16,099 nucleotides of DNA from Methylocapsa sp. (lineage in GTDB: Bacteria > Pseudomonadota > Alphaproteobacteria > Rhizobiales > Beijerinckiaceae). The stretch's first letter is position 1, and every line of letters starts with the position of its first letter. Below are positions 3,707 through 7,333 of this stretch, one piece after another. The stretch lies in contig JAFMSB010000009.1 in the NCBI GenBank assembly GCA_017353815.1, positions 1-16,099 on the forward strand. Reading direction: 5' to 3'. The position numbers and the translations under genes are program-made. The notes beneath the pieces are model-generated. The model was not told the origin of the DNA, ran no database searches, and saw nothing but the letters and a program-made list of their open reading frames with translations.

Positions 3707-6700
3707 TTATGTCAGGCGGACCCAAGCTCCTTCCGAGGGCACACGATTGTTGTCGACGATAAAGAGCAGGTGCCATCCCGGCGGGGAATATGTGAGGCCG
3801 GGAGGGGCGACGGCGTGCACCTGGGCTGCCGTCTGGCTGGTAATCACGCAGCCGACATAACGCTGGTTATGGTTAAAGCCGTGAGTGACGGCGCCGGGCC
3901 GCATAAACACGACCTCGGAGATCGTCGCCGCGTTCGGGCTCTGCACCGTGAATGGCGTGCCATGAACAAGCGGCGATGGCGTGACCGTGGTGATGGTTGG
4001 CCGTGGTTGGAAAAAATAGGAGGGCAAATAGCGCTCGTTGTGGGTGAATTGTCCCGCAGTCGGGTTACCTCCCATGATCACGCTTCCGTCGGGCAGCAGG
4101 ATCGCGGCGGAGTGGTAGTTGCGTGTGATGCTCATACTGGGGCCAAGCTGGAAGCCGGCTTGAGGATGTTCCGGATCGAAGATTTCGACAGGTCCGGGGA
4201 AATTTGTGATCCCGCCGGCGACAAACACGCGCCCGTCCGGGAGAAGCACCGCATTCACTTTGTCGCGGGGATTGTTGAGATTCGGAAGAGCCTGCCATGC
4301 TGGGGATGTTACCGACAGATCGATCCATTCCGCGGTTTGCTGCACTGCTGCACGGAGGCCGCCTAGGATCATGACCCGCAGCTCGTAGTTCGGCGGTTTT
4401 AGCGGCAAGAGCACCGCTGTGCCATCCATGTTGACGCCGCGCTGGCCGAAAACCTGGTTGTATTGCAGCGCCGGATTGTCAATGATCGGGTTCGCACCCC
4501 AATTGAACCGGCGGGCGGGCACTTGCGGGCCGGCGATGAAGAAATCGCCGTCCGGAAGCAGGAATGTCCAAGGGTACCAGAAGTACTTAAAAGTAGCGGG
4601 CACTGCTTTCGGGGTGCTCCACGATCCTGCGCCGCCGCCTGGCGCAAATATCTCGAGCGATTGGACGGGCAGGCCTGGAGTGTGTGCGTTATCCTCACCG
4701 AAGAGGGTGAGGGCCCTGCCGTCTTCGAGCGTGACCGTGGTCGGATAAAAGCGGCCGATATTCATGTCGGAGGCGTGGGTGAAGGAATTGGTTGCCGGAT
4801 GAAAGAGAAAGGCGCGGCGCTCCGTATTAGGGCTAAGAGTGGGGTTTCTTGGGTTTGAGTAGTAGCCGGCGTGGACGAGAATGGTGCCCTCCGGGTCATT
4901 TAAGTGAGCGTGGGACCCTGACCAGATGTTCTGGTCATTTGCGAAAACAAACGGCTGATTGGCTGGCTGAGTATAGAGCCCCGTCGTCTGATCCCAGAGC
5001 CGGCATTGATCGGGGCGCGGCCCATAGCCCCAGAAGAGCAGGCGAGACGAGTTCGGGATCAGGACGGCATGCATGAATGTGACCCCGGGGCGGCCGTCCA
5101 GCAGTTCCCACTGGCCGGCGGCCGCGCTTGCGAACCGGTCGAGCTGGACAGCCGGACAGGCGTTGTCTTCTGAGTCACGCGGCAGCCCAGTTTGGGATTC
5201 GAGCTGCTGTGCCTCCTCCTTTGTCAGGTGTATGGTCTCAACCGAACGGAGAAGCGCAGCGAGCCCTGCCGTCCTCGCCGTTTCCACTCCAGACCCGACT
5301 AGGAAATCACCCCGGAGGTCGCAAGGCTGCGCATCCTTATGGGCCTCCCGGCAGCGCTTGAACCCTTCCGGCAGCAATAGAACCGGCGGCGCTTCGGTCT
5401 CCGTGACAAAAGTCTCGCCGGGACCAATGCTACGAGTGTCAATCGATGCGCCGCCGAGACGCCACCTCTGTCCATGGAGATAGATGTTGTGCCAGTTCCC
5501 CATGGCGTCGAGATTAAAGACATGCCAGCGGATTTTCTGGCCGGCACGCGCGACAACGGTTGGCGTGTTGCCGGAAAACGAGCGGCCATTCAAGCAATAG
5601 GAAGGGATGCTTTCACCGCCCTGCTCGACAATACTGTGCCGGCCCGGGCCGTTGTTGGTCCAAGTGACCCGCCCGCCGATACCCACGGTAACATTTGCGG
5701 GCGAGAAAAAGAAATCGCCGATTGCAACGCTCGTATTGTCCGGACCTCCCGCCTCGACAGTAACGGAGCCGCTCATGCTGGCTCCGTGAACGCCGCAAAT
5801 GTAGTTATAGGCCGCGGCGAGCGTGAAGACCGACGTGAAGGATTGACCGGGATCGAGCGTCCCGCTTTGAAAAACCGGCAGGTCCCGGGGGCCGCCCATC
5901 TGATGAATGAACAAAGGTACGTGCAGCAAATGGCCTCCGGGGGGAAGAGAATGCGGAGCGTTCGCGTATTCATCGAGGGTGGCGAGGTAAGTAACGAGCT
6001 CGTCTGGCGTATTATCTAAGTCCATTCTATGCGCATGGCTGGCCGCCGGGGGGATCGCGGGTTTCCTGCCATCTCCCAGCGCCCGTTCTTGCATGGCATG
6101 GTGAGGCGCCAGGGCGGGACGGTTCTCCGGCAGATTCAGGCCTGACGCCACCTCTATCGAGCGTTCGAGAAAGCCGTCGGGGAGCGGAAACTTTGGGAGA
6201 GCTTCATATTCGTCCTCCGGCAGCACGATGAGCCCTCCGAAGAGTCCACGGCTGATCGAGAGGCCCATGTTGCGATAATGGTCATGGAACGGCCATGCCC
6301 CGATCGTCTCCCCGGTCACCTCGTAGCTATAGGTCCAGGTTTGGCCCGGATCGATCTCGTCGGAGCGGCGCCCATCGCTGCTCATTGCTCCAAACGGCCA
6401 CGCCCCGCCGGAGTCGATGCCGTGCGGCAGTCCATGGAGATGGAAGCTATGGGGAACGGCATCCGTGTTTTTGACATGGATTCGCAGCCGGTCGCCCGGC
6501 CTCGCATAGATCACCGTGCCCGGCACGCGGCGGTCGAACGACGGCTCGTTGATATCCGCCGCAACAAGCTTATCAGGCTTGGGGACGAGGTAATTTGGAT
6601 CGAGATATTCCCGGTAGACCAGGGCCGTTAGACTGCGGGCATTGACTTCGTCGCCGGGGATGATCCCGTCCTCATGGCCAATATTGCGCATGCAATCGCG

Positions 6701-6796
6701 CCGGTATTGGATGGGCGGCGTGACGTCGTCGTCCGGTTCAACGGGGGAGTAGCCCTGAATGATTTCGATCTTGAGATAGATATCACGGACTGCCAT
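3707..6796 (-). CDS. Fusion of multicopper-oxidase/cupredoxin domains and a galactose/glyoxal-oxidase-like kelch domain
   Basis: This is a 1029-residue protein. The N-terminal half looks like a multicopper oxidase: HSFHLHG (116-122) and WPFHDH (168-173) are the first two copper HxH motifs. A plastocyanin-like type-1 motif follows, YICGVHGASM, with C334, H337 and M341. A second plastocyanin-like start lies at 358-390, then a further cupredoxin domain with LNGRSF and HNIYLHG (436-442). From about 565 onward it resembles the glyoxal/galactose oxidase propeller, with repeats of the type LLPDGxxxxxGG, RFYPTT (Y684), RNYHSA (Y894, H895) and THGFNHNQR (H972). Residues about 931-1029 form the early-set (DUF1929) C-terminal domain. 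The start is fixed by GGAGGG before the ATG and a stop codon directly preceding it. No signal peptide or membrane segment is visible. Enzyme activity and substrate are unknown; several canonical ligand positions differ (see findings). Confidence 0.88.
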   Translation of the reverse strand: MAVRDIYLKIEIIQGYSPVEPDDDVTPPIQYRRDCMRNIGHEDGIIPGDEVNARSLTALVYREYLDPNYLVPKPDKLVAADINEPSFDRRVPGTVIYARPGDRLRIHVKNTDAVPHSFHLHGLPHGIDSGGAWPFGAMSSDGRRSDEIDPGQTWTYSYEVTGETIGAWPFHDHYRNMGLSISRGLFGGLIVLPEDEYEALPKFPLPDGFLERSIEVASGLNLPENRPALAPHHAMQERALGDGRKPAIPPAASHAHRMDLDNTPDELVTYLATLDEYANAPHSLPPGGHLLHVPLFIHQMGGPRDLPVFQSGTLDPGQSFTSVFTLAAAYNYICGVHGASMSGSVTVEAGGPDNTSVAIGDFFFSPANVTVGIGGRVTWTNNGPGRHSIVEQGGESIPSYCLNGRSFSGNTPTVVARAGQKIRWHVFNLDAMGNWHNIYLHGQRWRLGGASIDTRSIGPGETFVTETEAPPVLLLPEGFKRCREAHKDAQPCDLRGDFLVGSGVETARTAGLAALLRSVETIHLTKEEAQQLESQTGLPRDSEDNACPAVQLDRFASAAAGQWELLDGRPGVTFMHAVLIPNSSRLLFWGYGPRPDQCRLWDQTTGLYTQPANQPFVFANDQNIWSGSHAHLNDPEGTILVHAGYYSNPRNPTLSPNTERRAFLFHPATNSFTHASDMNIGRFYPTTVTLEDGRALTLFGEDNAHTPGLPVQSLEIFAPGGGAGSWSTPKAVPATFKYFWYPWTFLLPDGDFFIAGPQVPARRFNWGANPIIDNPALQYNQVFGQRGVNMDGTAVLLPLKPPNYELRVMILGGLRAAVQQTAEWIDLSVTSPAWQALPNLNNPRDKVNAVLLPDGRVFVAGGITNFPGPVEIFDPEHPQAGFQLGPSMSITRNYHSAAILLPDGSVIMGGNPTAGQFTHNERYLPSYFFQPRPTITTVTPSPLVHGTPFTVQSPNAATISEVVFMRPGAVTHGFNHNQRYVGCVITSQTAAQVHAVAPPGLTYSPPGWHLLFIVDNNRVPSEGAWVRLT

Positions 6797-7333
6797 TTAT
6801 CCCTCCATCGCGGGAAGATATGCGCTCGCGCATAGTTATCTTGGCAGCGAAAATACCTTTATTGCGGTTGGGCCCGCATCCTACATTCAGGGGATGCCGT
6901 TACGCGAGTTGGCCCTACGGATCGGCCCAATCCCCGAGGAATAAGAGCGCAAGTGGTAAAAGAGGAATTCGAGTTTTGTGAATTAACCAACCGGCACTTA
7001 AGACGTAATCGTCAAAGCGGCGTGATGCTCCAAATATATTCACAGCTCGCCCTGGGTAGCATACCGGGCGGACAGCCACAGCATCAAGGGTGCCAAACGC
7101 CTCTCCCGCACCGTTTTCCCTTGTATATCTGCGTCATCTGCACATCGCTCGTCGTGTATATCAGCGGTATAATCTATGGCGAAGGGGGGCGCGCTTGCCA
7201 TACCATTGGCGCAAGGCGAACGCCGCCGCTAAAGAGCATTGGGTGAAGCCAATCTGGTAAAGAGGGCGGTCGTTCGCGGCCGGGCCCGGTTTTCGCCTTA
7301 TTTGGAAACCACGGGCATTCTTAGGAGCCGCCC
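6797..7333. other. 537-bp gene-poor gap between hflC and the fusion gene
   Basis: Both flanking genes are on the minus strand, so this gap should contain the fusion-gene promoter and the hflC 3' region. Parts are noticeably AT-richer than the surroundings (about 6940-7060 and 7120-7180). A GTG-initiated frame (6953-7246, 97 codons) exists on the plus strand. Its codon use is mixed, it has no recognisable domain, and a GAGGA site sits 12 nt before the GTG, so I do not call it a gene. A TATAAT occurs at 7168-7173 (plus) without a convincing -35. No tRNA, mobile element or terminator with a T-tract was found. Confidence 0.5.
6819..6834. promoter_or_regulatory. Palindrome upstream of the copper-oxidase/kelch fusion gene (candidate operator)
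   Basis: TATGCGC-TC-GCGCATA is a perfect 7-bp inverted repeat with a 2-bp centre. It is loosely flanked by AGA and TCT, and its near edge is 22 bp upstream of the fusion-gene ATG. The short spacer fits a dimeric repressor or activator site better than an RNA hairpin. I cannot assign a regulator. Confidence 0.4.

Follow-up and report, generated by a model that had tools for sequence, protein, structure and literature searches.

The window analysed here is a stretch of 16,099 nucleotides from a draft Methylocapsa genome that is 78% complete and consists of 438 contigs. On its reverse strand it harbors a gene whose product, hereafter the window protein, joins in one chain a multicopper oxidase (MCO)-like half to a galactose oxidase-like half (Table 1). 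Judged by their sequences, the genes on one side are presumably ntrB- and ntrC-like, and those on the other side we take to be hflC, hflK and a dihydrofolate reductase (DHFR) gene, followed by citrate synthase and argG. A gap of 537 bases (6797-7333) lies upstream of the fusion gene; it contains stop codons in the frame of the gene and has a G+C content of about 0.54-0.56, below that of the fusion gene.

Table 1. Positions of the fusion gene, its domains and its copper-site motifs in the window (residue numbers refer to the window protein).
Feature	Position	Strand	Remark
Gene of the window protein, MCO-like/galactose oxidase-like fusion	3707..6796	-	1029 aa
Cupredoxin domain 1, residues 86-200, Cu-oxidase_3	6197..6541	-	half of the trinuclear site
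HLHG, H119 and H121	6431..6442	-	His in 120/120 and 119/120 aligned rows, window included
HDH, H171 and H173	6278..6286	-	His in 119/120 and 120/120 rows
Linker, residues 201-285	5942..6196	-	2 Met in the window protein
Cupredoxin domain 2, residues 286-400, plastocyanin-like	5597..5941	-	extra type-1 copper site
C334-x2-H337-x3-M341	5774..5797	-	complete type-1 ligand set together with H298
Cupredoxin domain 3, residues 401-524	5225..5596	-	dismantled; 13/50 conserved columns changed
HNIYLHG, residues 436-442	5471..5491	-	mostly HNFHPHA in relatives; H439 replaced by Tyr
GSGVETA, residues 501-507	5276..5296	-	mostly HCHVEMH in relatives; three His and the type-1 Cys lost
Kelch-type beta-propeller, residues 561-930	4007..5116	-	
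W625-S626	4919..4924	-	Phe-Cys position of GlxA-type propellers; cross-linking Cys replaced by Ser
F683-Y684	4745..4750	-	Y684 at the cross-linked Tyr position, F683 at the GlxA Trp288 position
Y894-H895	4112..4117	-	copper ligand pair; kept in 300/300 chains
Early-set C-terminal domain, residues 931-1029	3710..4006	-	
H972	3881..3883	-	fourth copper ligand; kept in 300/300 chains

The first-pass annotation had described the gene as a single-gene fusion of MCO-like cupredoxins with a galactose/glyoxal oxidase-like propeller, and sequence, profile and fold comparisons all support this description. Domain searches and fold comparison matched both families: the cupredoxin fold is present in the MCO half and the propeller and early-set folds in the second half, both by fold and by profile tests. 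The list of related structures hardly extended over the MCO half, so that the lack of further MCO chains in it carries no weight. In addition, the window protein aligns co-linearly and over its full length with both halves of relatives in which an MCO is fused to a radical copper oxidase. Three of the motifs listed at that stage (HLHG, HDH and C-x2-H-x3-M) proved to be intact ligands. The further cupredoxin recognised from HNIYLHG is present as well, but its H439 is changed to Tyr and most of its ligands are lost.

The architecture turned out to be widespread, a point that had been left to a count of homologues. Searches with the window protein and with two relatives gave 757 (E <= 1e-3, among 7999 scored candidates), 1336 and 1224 matches, totals which include proteins beyond those whose architecture was seen. 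Both MCO and galactose oxidase Pfam domains occur in all of the best 120 of the 757 matches, the window protein included, and the other 119 share 59-66% identity with it among the matches listed. The best 120 from each of the two relatives, which partly overlap, are nearly all fusions. When 84,980 species were scanned for the sequence pattern with one genome each, 20 fusion loci emerged, in Variovorax, Lentzea, Nitrosomonas, Piscinibacter and metagenome-assembled genomes (MAGs) labelled Nitrospira, Acidobacteria, Pyrinomonadaceae, Fimbriiglobus, Saprospiraceae, Marinobacter and others. The fusions of Variovorax paradoxus ISL-79 and Lentzea aerocolonigenes are examples of intact Ser-type relatives (see below). 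To judge from these searches, the fusion is a real and widespread architecture that defines a large bacterial family; the open-licence papers searched contained no account of it. The text of PMC3192119 contains no occurrence of galactose, kelch or fusion, and that of PMC11267884 no occurrence of multicopper or cupredoxin.

The distribution around the window genome is patchy. A full-length match was found in one of 385 genomes of its class, namely its own, and an order-wide search using a fusion with both halves complete as query again recovered only the window's own gene (1/397 genomes). None of 59 other genomes sampled from genus to order gave a full-length match, and among 398 genomes of the phylum the single other match covers the propeller alone. 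The gene hflC is present in all 15 genomes of the genus, and DHFR, hflK and hflC lie together in 5/5 same-genus regions. None of these five hflC regions, one of which ends 1.4 kb past hflC, contained a match to the fusion protein; in the one region whose individual genes were examined, the gene next to hflC is presumably acyl-CoA dehydrogenase-like, as recognised by its sequence, and lies after it. This patchy distribution, together with the fusion-free same-genus hflC regions, favors a lateral acquisition of the fusion gene. Carriage on plasmids was considered and rejected, as none of 72,556 records covers 80% of either query. The window genome also contains a PF02461 (AMO/pMMO) gene, which is found in 10 of the 15 genomes of the genus, the window's counted, and a galactose oxidase-like protein without an MCO half near the start of contig C108 (L074:73-1839). 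The latter protein has the complete Cys/Trp/Tyr set. We take the organism to be an alphaproteobacterial methanotroph.

The copper sites were compared across 300 aligned full-length chains; the protein searches contributed 283 of them and the species scan 17, and some genes occur twice. The ligand columns were assigned partly from the alignment and partly from the galactose oxidase numbering. In the propeller exactly two states are found. A total of 121 chains (Cys-type) show the GlxA-type set Phe-Cys ... Trp-Tyr ... Tyr-His ... His, and the other 179 (Ser-type), to which the window protein belongs, show without exception Trp-Ser ... Phe-Tyr ... Tyr-His ... His. Every chain keeps Tyr, Tyr, His and His as copper ligands (Y684, Y894, H895, H972). 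The window protein therefore lacks the cross-linking Cys of AA5 enzymes and other radical copper oxidases, which is Ser626, and the second-shell Trp, which is Phe683. According to PMC13094651, this place is occupied by Trp288 in GlxA and by Trp509, beside Tyr510, in Fusarium AldOx; other aromatic residues occur at the corresponding galactose oxidase place within AA5_2, so that the Trp is not absolute. Since the profile alignment to GlxA is weak in the blade with the Cys (4.3 bits), the columns were checked by pairwise alignment within the fusion family. Of 25 randomly chosen Cys-type members aligned with the window protein, 24 have Cys opposite its Ser and one is unaligned there; Trp stands opposite its Phe in 25/25.

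The Ser-type chains form one clade with a support of 0.996 in the propeller tree and 0.93 in the MCO tree, and the Cys-type chains form one clade in the propeller tree (0.993). This tree also separates the 300 fusions as one group (1.0) from five stand-alone outgroups. We examined 14 propeller loci that lack an MCO half; 12 were readable, and all 12 have the Cys. Cys therefore looks like the ancestral state and Ser like a state derived a single time. The change from Phe-Cys/Trp-Tyr to Trp-Ser/Phe-Tyr, complete in 179/179 chains, looks like a coupled swap.

In the oxidase half the window protein has kept all four trinuclear His of domain 1 (H119, H121, H171, H173), which are present together in 296/300 chains, and the complete His, Cys, His, Met type-1 set of domain 2 (H298, C334, H337, M341). 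Domain 3 lacks the intact HxxHxH and HCHxxxH ligand motifs of three-domain MCOs. It reads GSGVETART where relatives mostly have HCHVEMHMM; with H439, H501, C502, H503 and H507, five of the seven ligands that this domain contributes to the O2-reducing centre are lost, and H436 and H441 are left. At every lost position, 118 or 119 of the 120 aligned rows retain the ligand, with the window protein among the exceptions, and the combination HxxYxH/GSGxxxA occurs in no other of the 300 chains. For a conservation test we selected 326 columns that are at least 95% conserved in 147 Ser-type chains with intact oxidase halves. Within residues 401-524 the window protein is changed at 13 of 50 such columns, versus 12 of 276 elsewhere (Fisher p 7.6e-6); among the 147 reference chains the median for domain 3 is 0 and the maximum 5. 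Domain 2 is unchanged (0/16), the propeller is changed at 4/113 columns, and domain 1 carries Y125H, D130G and C149D, two of the three near HLHG. The two Met of the linker compare with a median of six in the intact Ser-type relatives (n=147), 15 of which also have two or fewer. A predicted structure has a pLDDT below 50 at residues 504-511, the lost domain-3 site. We discarded this as a sign of domain-3 loss: when an intact relative was modelled from the same 120-sequence alignment, its prediction was equally uncertain there, so that the model gives no independent support for the loss.

Across the family, all four domain-1 His and all seven tested domain-3 ligands are kept in 267/300 chains. 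The oxidase ligands are complete in 120/121 Cys-type chains, so that 120 aligned chains have both copper enzymes ligand-complete. The first-pass annotation had proposed that the joint protein could couple an oxidation to O2 chemistry on one chain or act as a copper-binding scaffold. The coupling finds no support in the window copy, because most of the domain-3 trinuclear and type-1 ligands are gone and its subfamily has neither the cross-linking Cys nor the second-shell Trp, and the scaffold fits this copy better. The coupling idea suits the Cys-type sister subfamily, of whose 121 chains all but one possess the full residue sets of both enzymes.

A group of 29 Ser-type chains, locus L031 included, has Asp in place of the domain-3 type-1 His (H507D). 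The domain-2 type-1 Cys is also lost in 19 of these 29 and in no chain outside the group. By its residue pattern the H507D group is a second, separate way of losing the oxidase half. The loss of the domain-2 Cys in these 19 chains connects the domain-2 site with oxidase function and speaks against an independent role; it hints that this site serves the oxidase. The window protein shows the opposite pattern, with the domain-2 site kept and domain 3 lost. Membership in the H507D group as cause of the window losses was rejected, since the MCO tree places the window protein in an 18-member clade without these chains; the propeller tree leaves the relation unsettled. A strict coupling of an axial Met to Leu change with the loss of the Cys was likewise rejected because Met forms occur in the Ser clade (13/179, or 10/147 with all other ligands; 121/121 in Cys-type chains). 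A His-rich insert in domain 3 (at least 8 His) is present in 64/121 Cys-type and 0/179 Ser-type chains; the fusions of Bradyrhizobium sp. AZCC 1708 (P0184) and Lysobacter niabensis (P0219), both of them complete in either half, carry long inserts of this kind just before HCHxxxH. A hydrophobic N-terminus resembling a signal peptide was detected in 0/164 Ser-type and 0/119 Cys-type fusions with a crude test (15-residue mean hydropathy >1.6 within the first 45 residues) that would miss unusual export.

The window protein has diverged strongly. Of the 483 columns that are conserved across the 120 aligned rows, it deviates at 55 (median 6), and its branch is long (0.36 and 0.43 versus medians of about 0.10). 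In the MCO-half tree it is nested in the 18-member clade (0.993) and in the propeller tree it stands near the base of its clade (0.816/0.519); this discordance may be due to long-branch error or recombination. The domain-3 losses are carried by one sequence from one draft genome, and no second copy was found. Misassembly or sequencing error is conceivable in a contig from a draft of 438 pieces, but we consider it extremely unlikely: the losses consist of many in-frame codon changes, housekeeping genes adjoin the fusion gene, and the alignment with relatives, at 59-66%, spans the entire protein. At the sequence level, the window copy is a naturally occurring variant that has lost ligands. The G+C content at the three codon positions is 0.637/0.508/0.677 in domain 3 and 0.636/0.478/0.701 in the whole gene, with similar values in the neighbors, and together with the open frame this normal signature argues against a decaying pseudogene. 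The excess of changed conserved columns, the long branch, the rarity of the fusion in the genus and class of the window and the lack of a close relative with the same losses among the 300 chains would all be expected if a laterally acquired oxidase were no longer needed and drifted slowly, with domain 3 as the first part to go. We regard such a decay as rather unlikely, given that the 1029-residue frame has stayed open although about one third of the residues differ from the nearest relatives, that 264 of the 276 columns conserved elsewhere than in domain 3 are unchanged, that the domain-2 and propeller ligands are all kept, and that the coding signature is normal.

The protein could also still be an oxidase that uses an unconventional route, either through the domain-1 His or through a Tyr/Tyr/His/His copper that lacks the Cys and has a relocated Trp (W625). 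The four domain-1 His are retained here and in nearly all other chains, the propeller ligands are universal, and the Trp-Ser/Phe-Tyr exchange is without exception and looks coupled. Galactose oxidase, however, needs its Tyr-Cys link, and no biochemistry of a natural Ser form was found in the open-licence papers searched. In a Cys mutant of GlxA the spin shifts to the second-shell Trp, as reported in PMC13094651; for the function of GlxA the link is described as required in PMC4736821. On balance this route appears quite improbable. We lean towards the reading that the window protein is a laterally acquired protein repurposed for copper binding or one-electron transfer, which would reduce O2 neither at a trinuclear cluster nor via a Tyr-Cys radical. 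Since the O2-reducing centre is lost and the Tyr-Cys cofactor is missing, the function most likely left is copper binding, perhaps with one-electron transfer; the protein probably binds copper and serves a different purpose. The design of the family is a three-cupredoxin MCO with an extra plastocyanin-type copper site in the middle domain, fused to a propeller of the radical copper oxidase type. The gene would have reached the window genome by lateral transfer and may have been repurposed afterwards. Copper would then be bound, and single electrons possibly passed on, through the intact domain-2 type-1 site and probably the propeller copper.

Compared with laccase, CueO and ceruloplasmin, the fusion differs by a type-1 site of its own in the middle domain and by the attached propeller; the window protein in addition lacks the five domain-3 ligands H439, H501, C502, H503 and H507 and, by the crude hydropathy test, an N-terminus resembling a signal peptide. 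Its domain 2 shares the His, Cys, His, Met ligand set of plastocyanin and azurin. From GlxA of Streptomyces lividans and from the AA5 galactose and glyoxal oxidases the fusion differs by the MCO half in front of the propeller, and the subfamily of the window by the exchanges of Cys for Ser and of the second-shell Trp for Phe. The window protein scores 159 bits with the NCBIfam equivalog model of GlxA, below the cut-off of 800. Only small groups of neighbors recur among 18 related loci and the window. Metal P-type ATPases lie near 3 of the 18 loci, two of the three confirmed by Pfam. The Ser-clade linker shares its richness in Met with the cuprous oxidase CueO and, together with the nearby ATPases, suggests a putative role of these fusions in copper handling.

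Copper radical oxidases require a one-electron oxidation for their activation, as shown for a fungal alcohol oxidase with its partner peroxidase in PMC9770985. We hypothesize that in the fusions this oxidation could come from a type-1 copper within the chain itself. Extended to the whole family, a laccase-like enzyme would be paired with a radical copper oxidase, and its type-1 coppers would activate the Tyr-Cys radical site by one-electron oxidation from within the chain, which in some fungal enzymes is the task of separate peroxidases. One clade would have dropped the Tyr-Cys cofactor by the coupled exchange and would now contain a different copper site, and the window protein would be a further step, with the O2-reducing half switched off and the new propeller site kept. 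As a whole this scenario is speculative, and we think it unlikely to hold in full. A complete MCO on the same chain represents a testable built-in activator for a copper radical oxidase. The Ser/Phe clade provides a natural test of what a galactose oxidase-type site does when the Tyr-Cys cofactor is missing, and the window protein indicates which copper sites may disappear without loss of the others.

In an Acidobacteria MAG (L044:2168-11274) a fusion with both halves complete adjoins another MCO, two tyrosinase genes and a LodA gene, and a second fusion-like MCO begins at the contig end. In the class of this genome, 2 of 162 genomes contain a full-length fusion, one being this genome itself. 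The arrangement is similar to known lodA operons that also contain genes for a tyrosinase and an MCO (Campillo-Brocal 2015, PMC4417212); the sections on these operons name the MCO as pfam07731/07732 and do not mention a galactose oxidase half. In contrast, no tyrosinase or LodA-type genes were recognised among the ORFs of the window. A catalase-peroxidase-like gene (Pfam peroxidase) at L033:8074-10290 follows a Ser-type fusion at a distance of about 3.5 kb downstream. In the region L043:4323-16483, another Ser-type fusion has a tyrosinase-VWA protein upstream and a DUF411 protein downstream, both assigned by Pfam, and genes that by eye we take to be CusA/CusB-like efflux genes are also located downstream.
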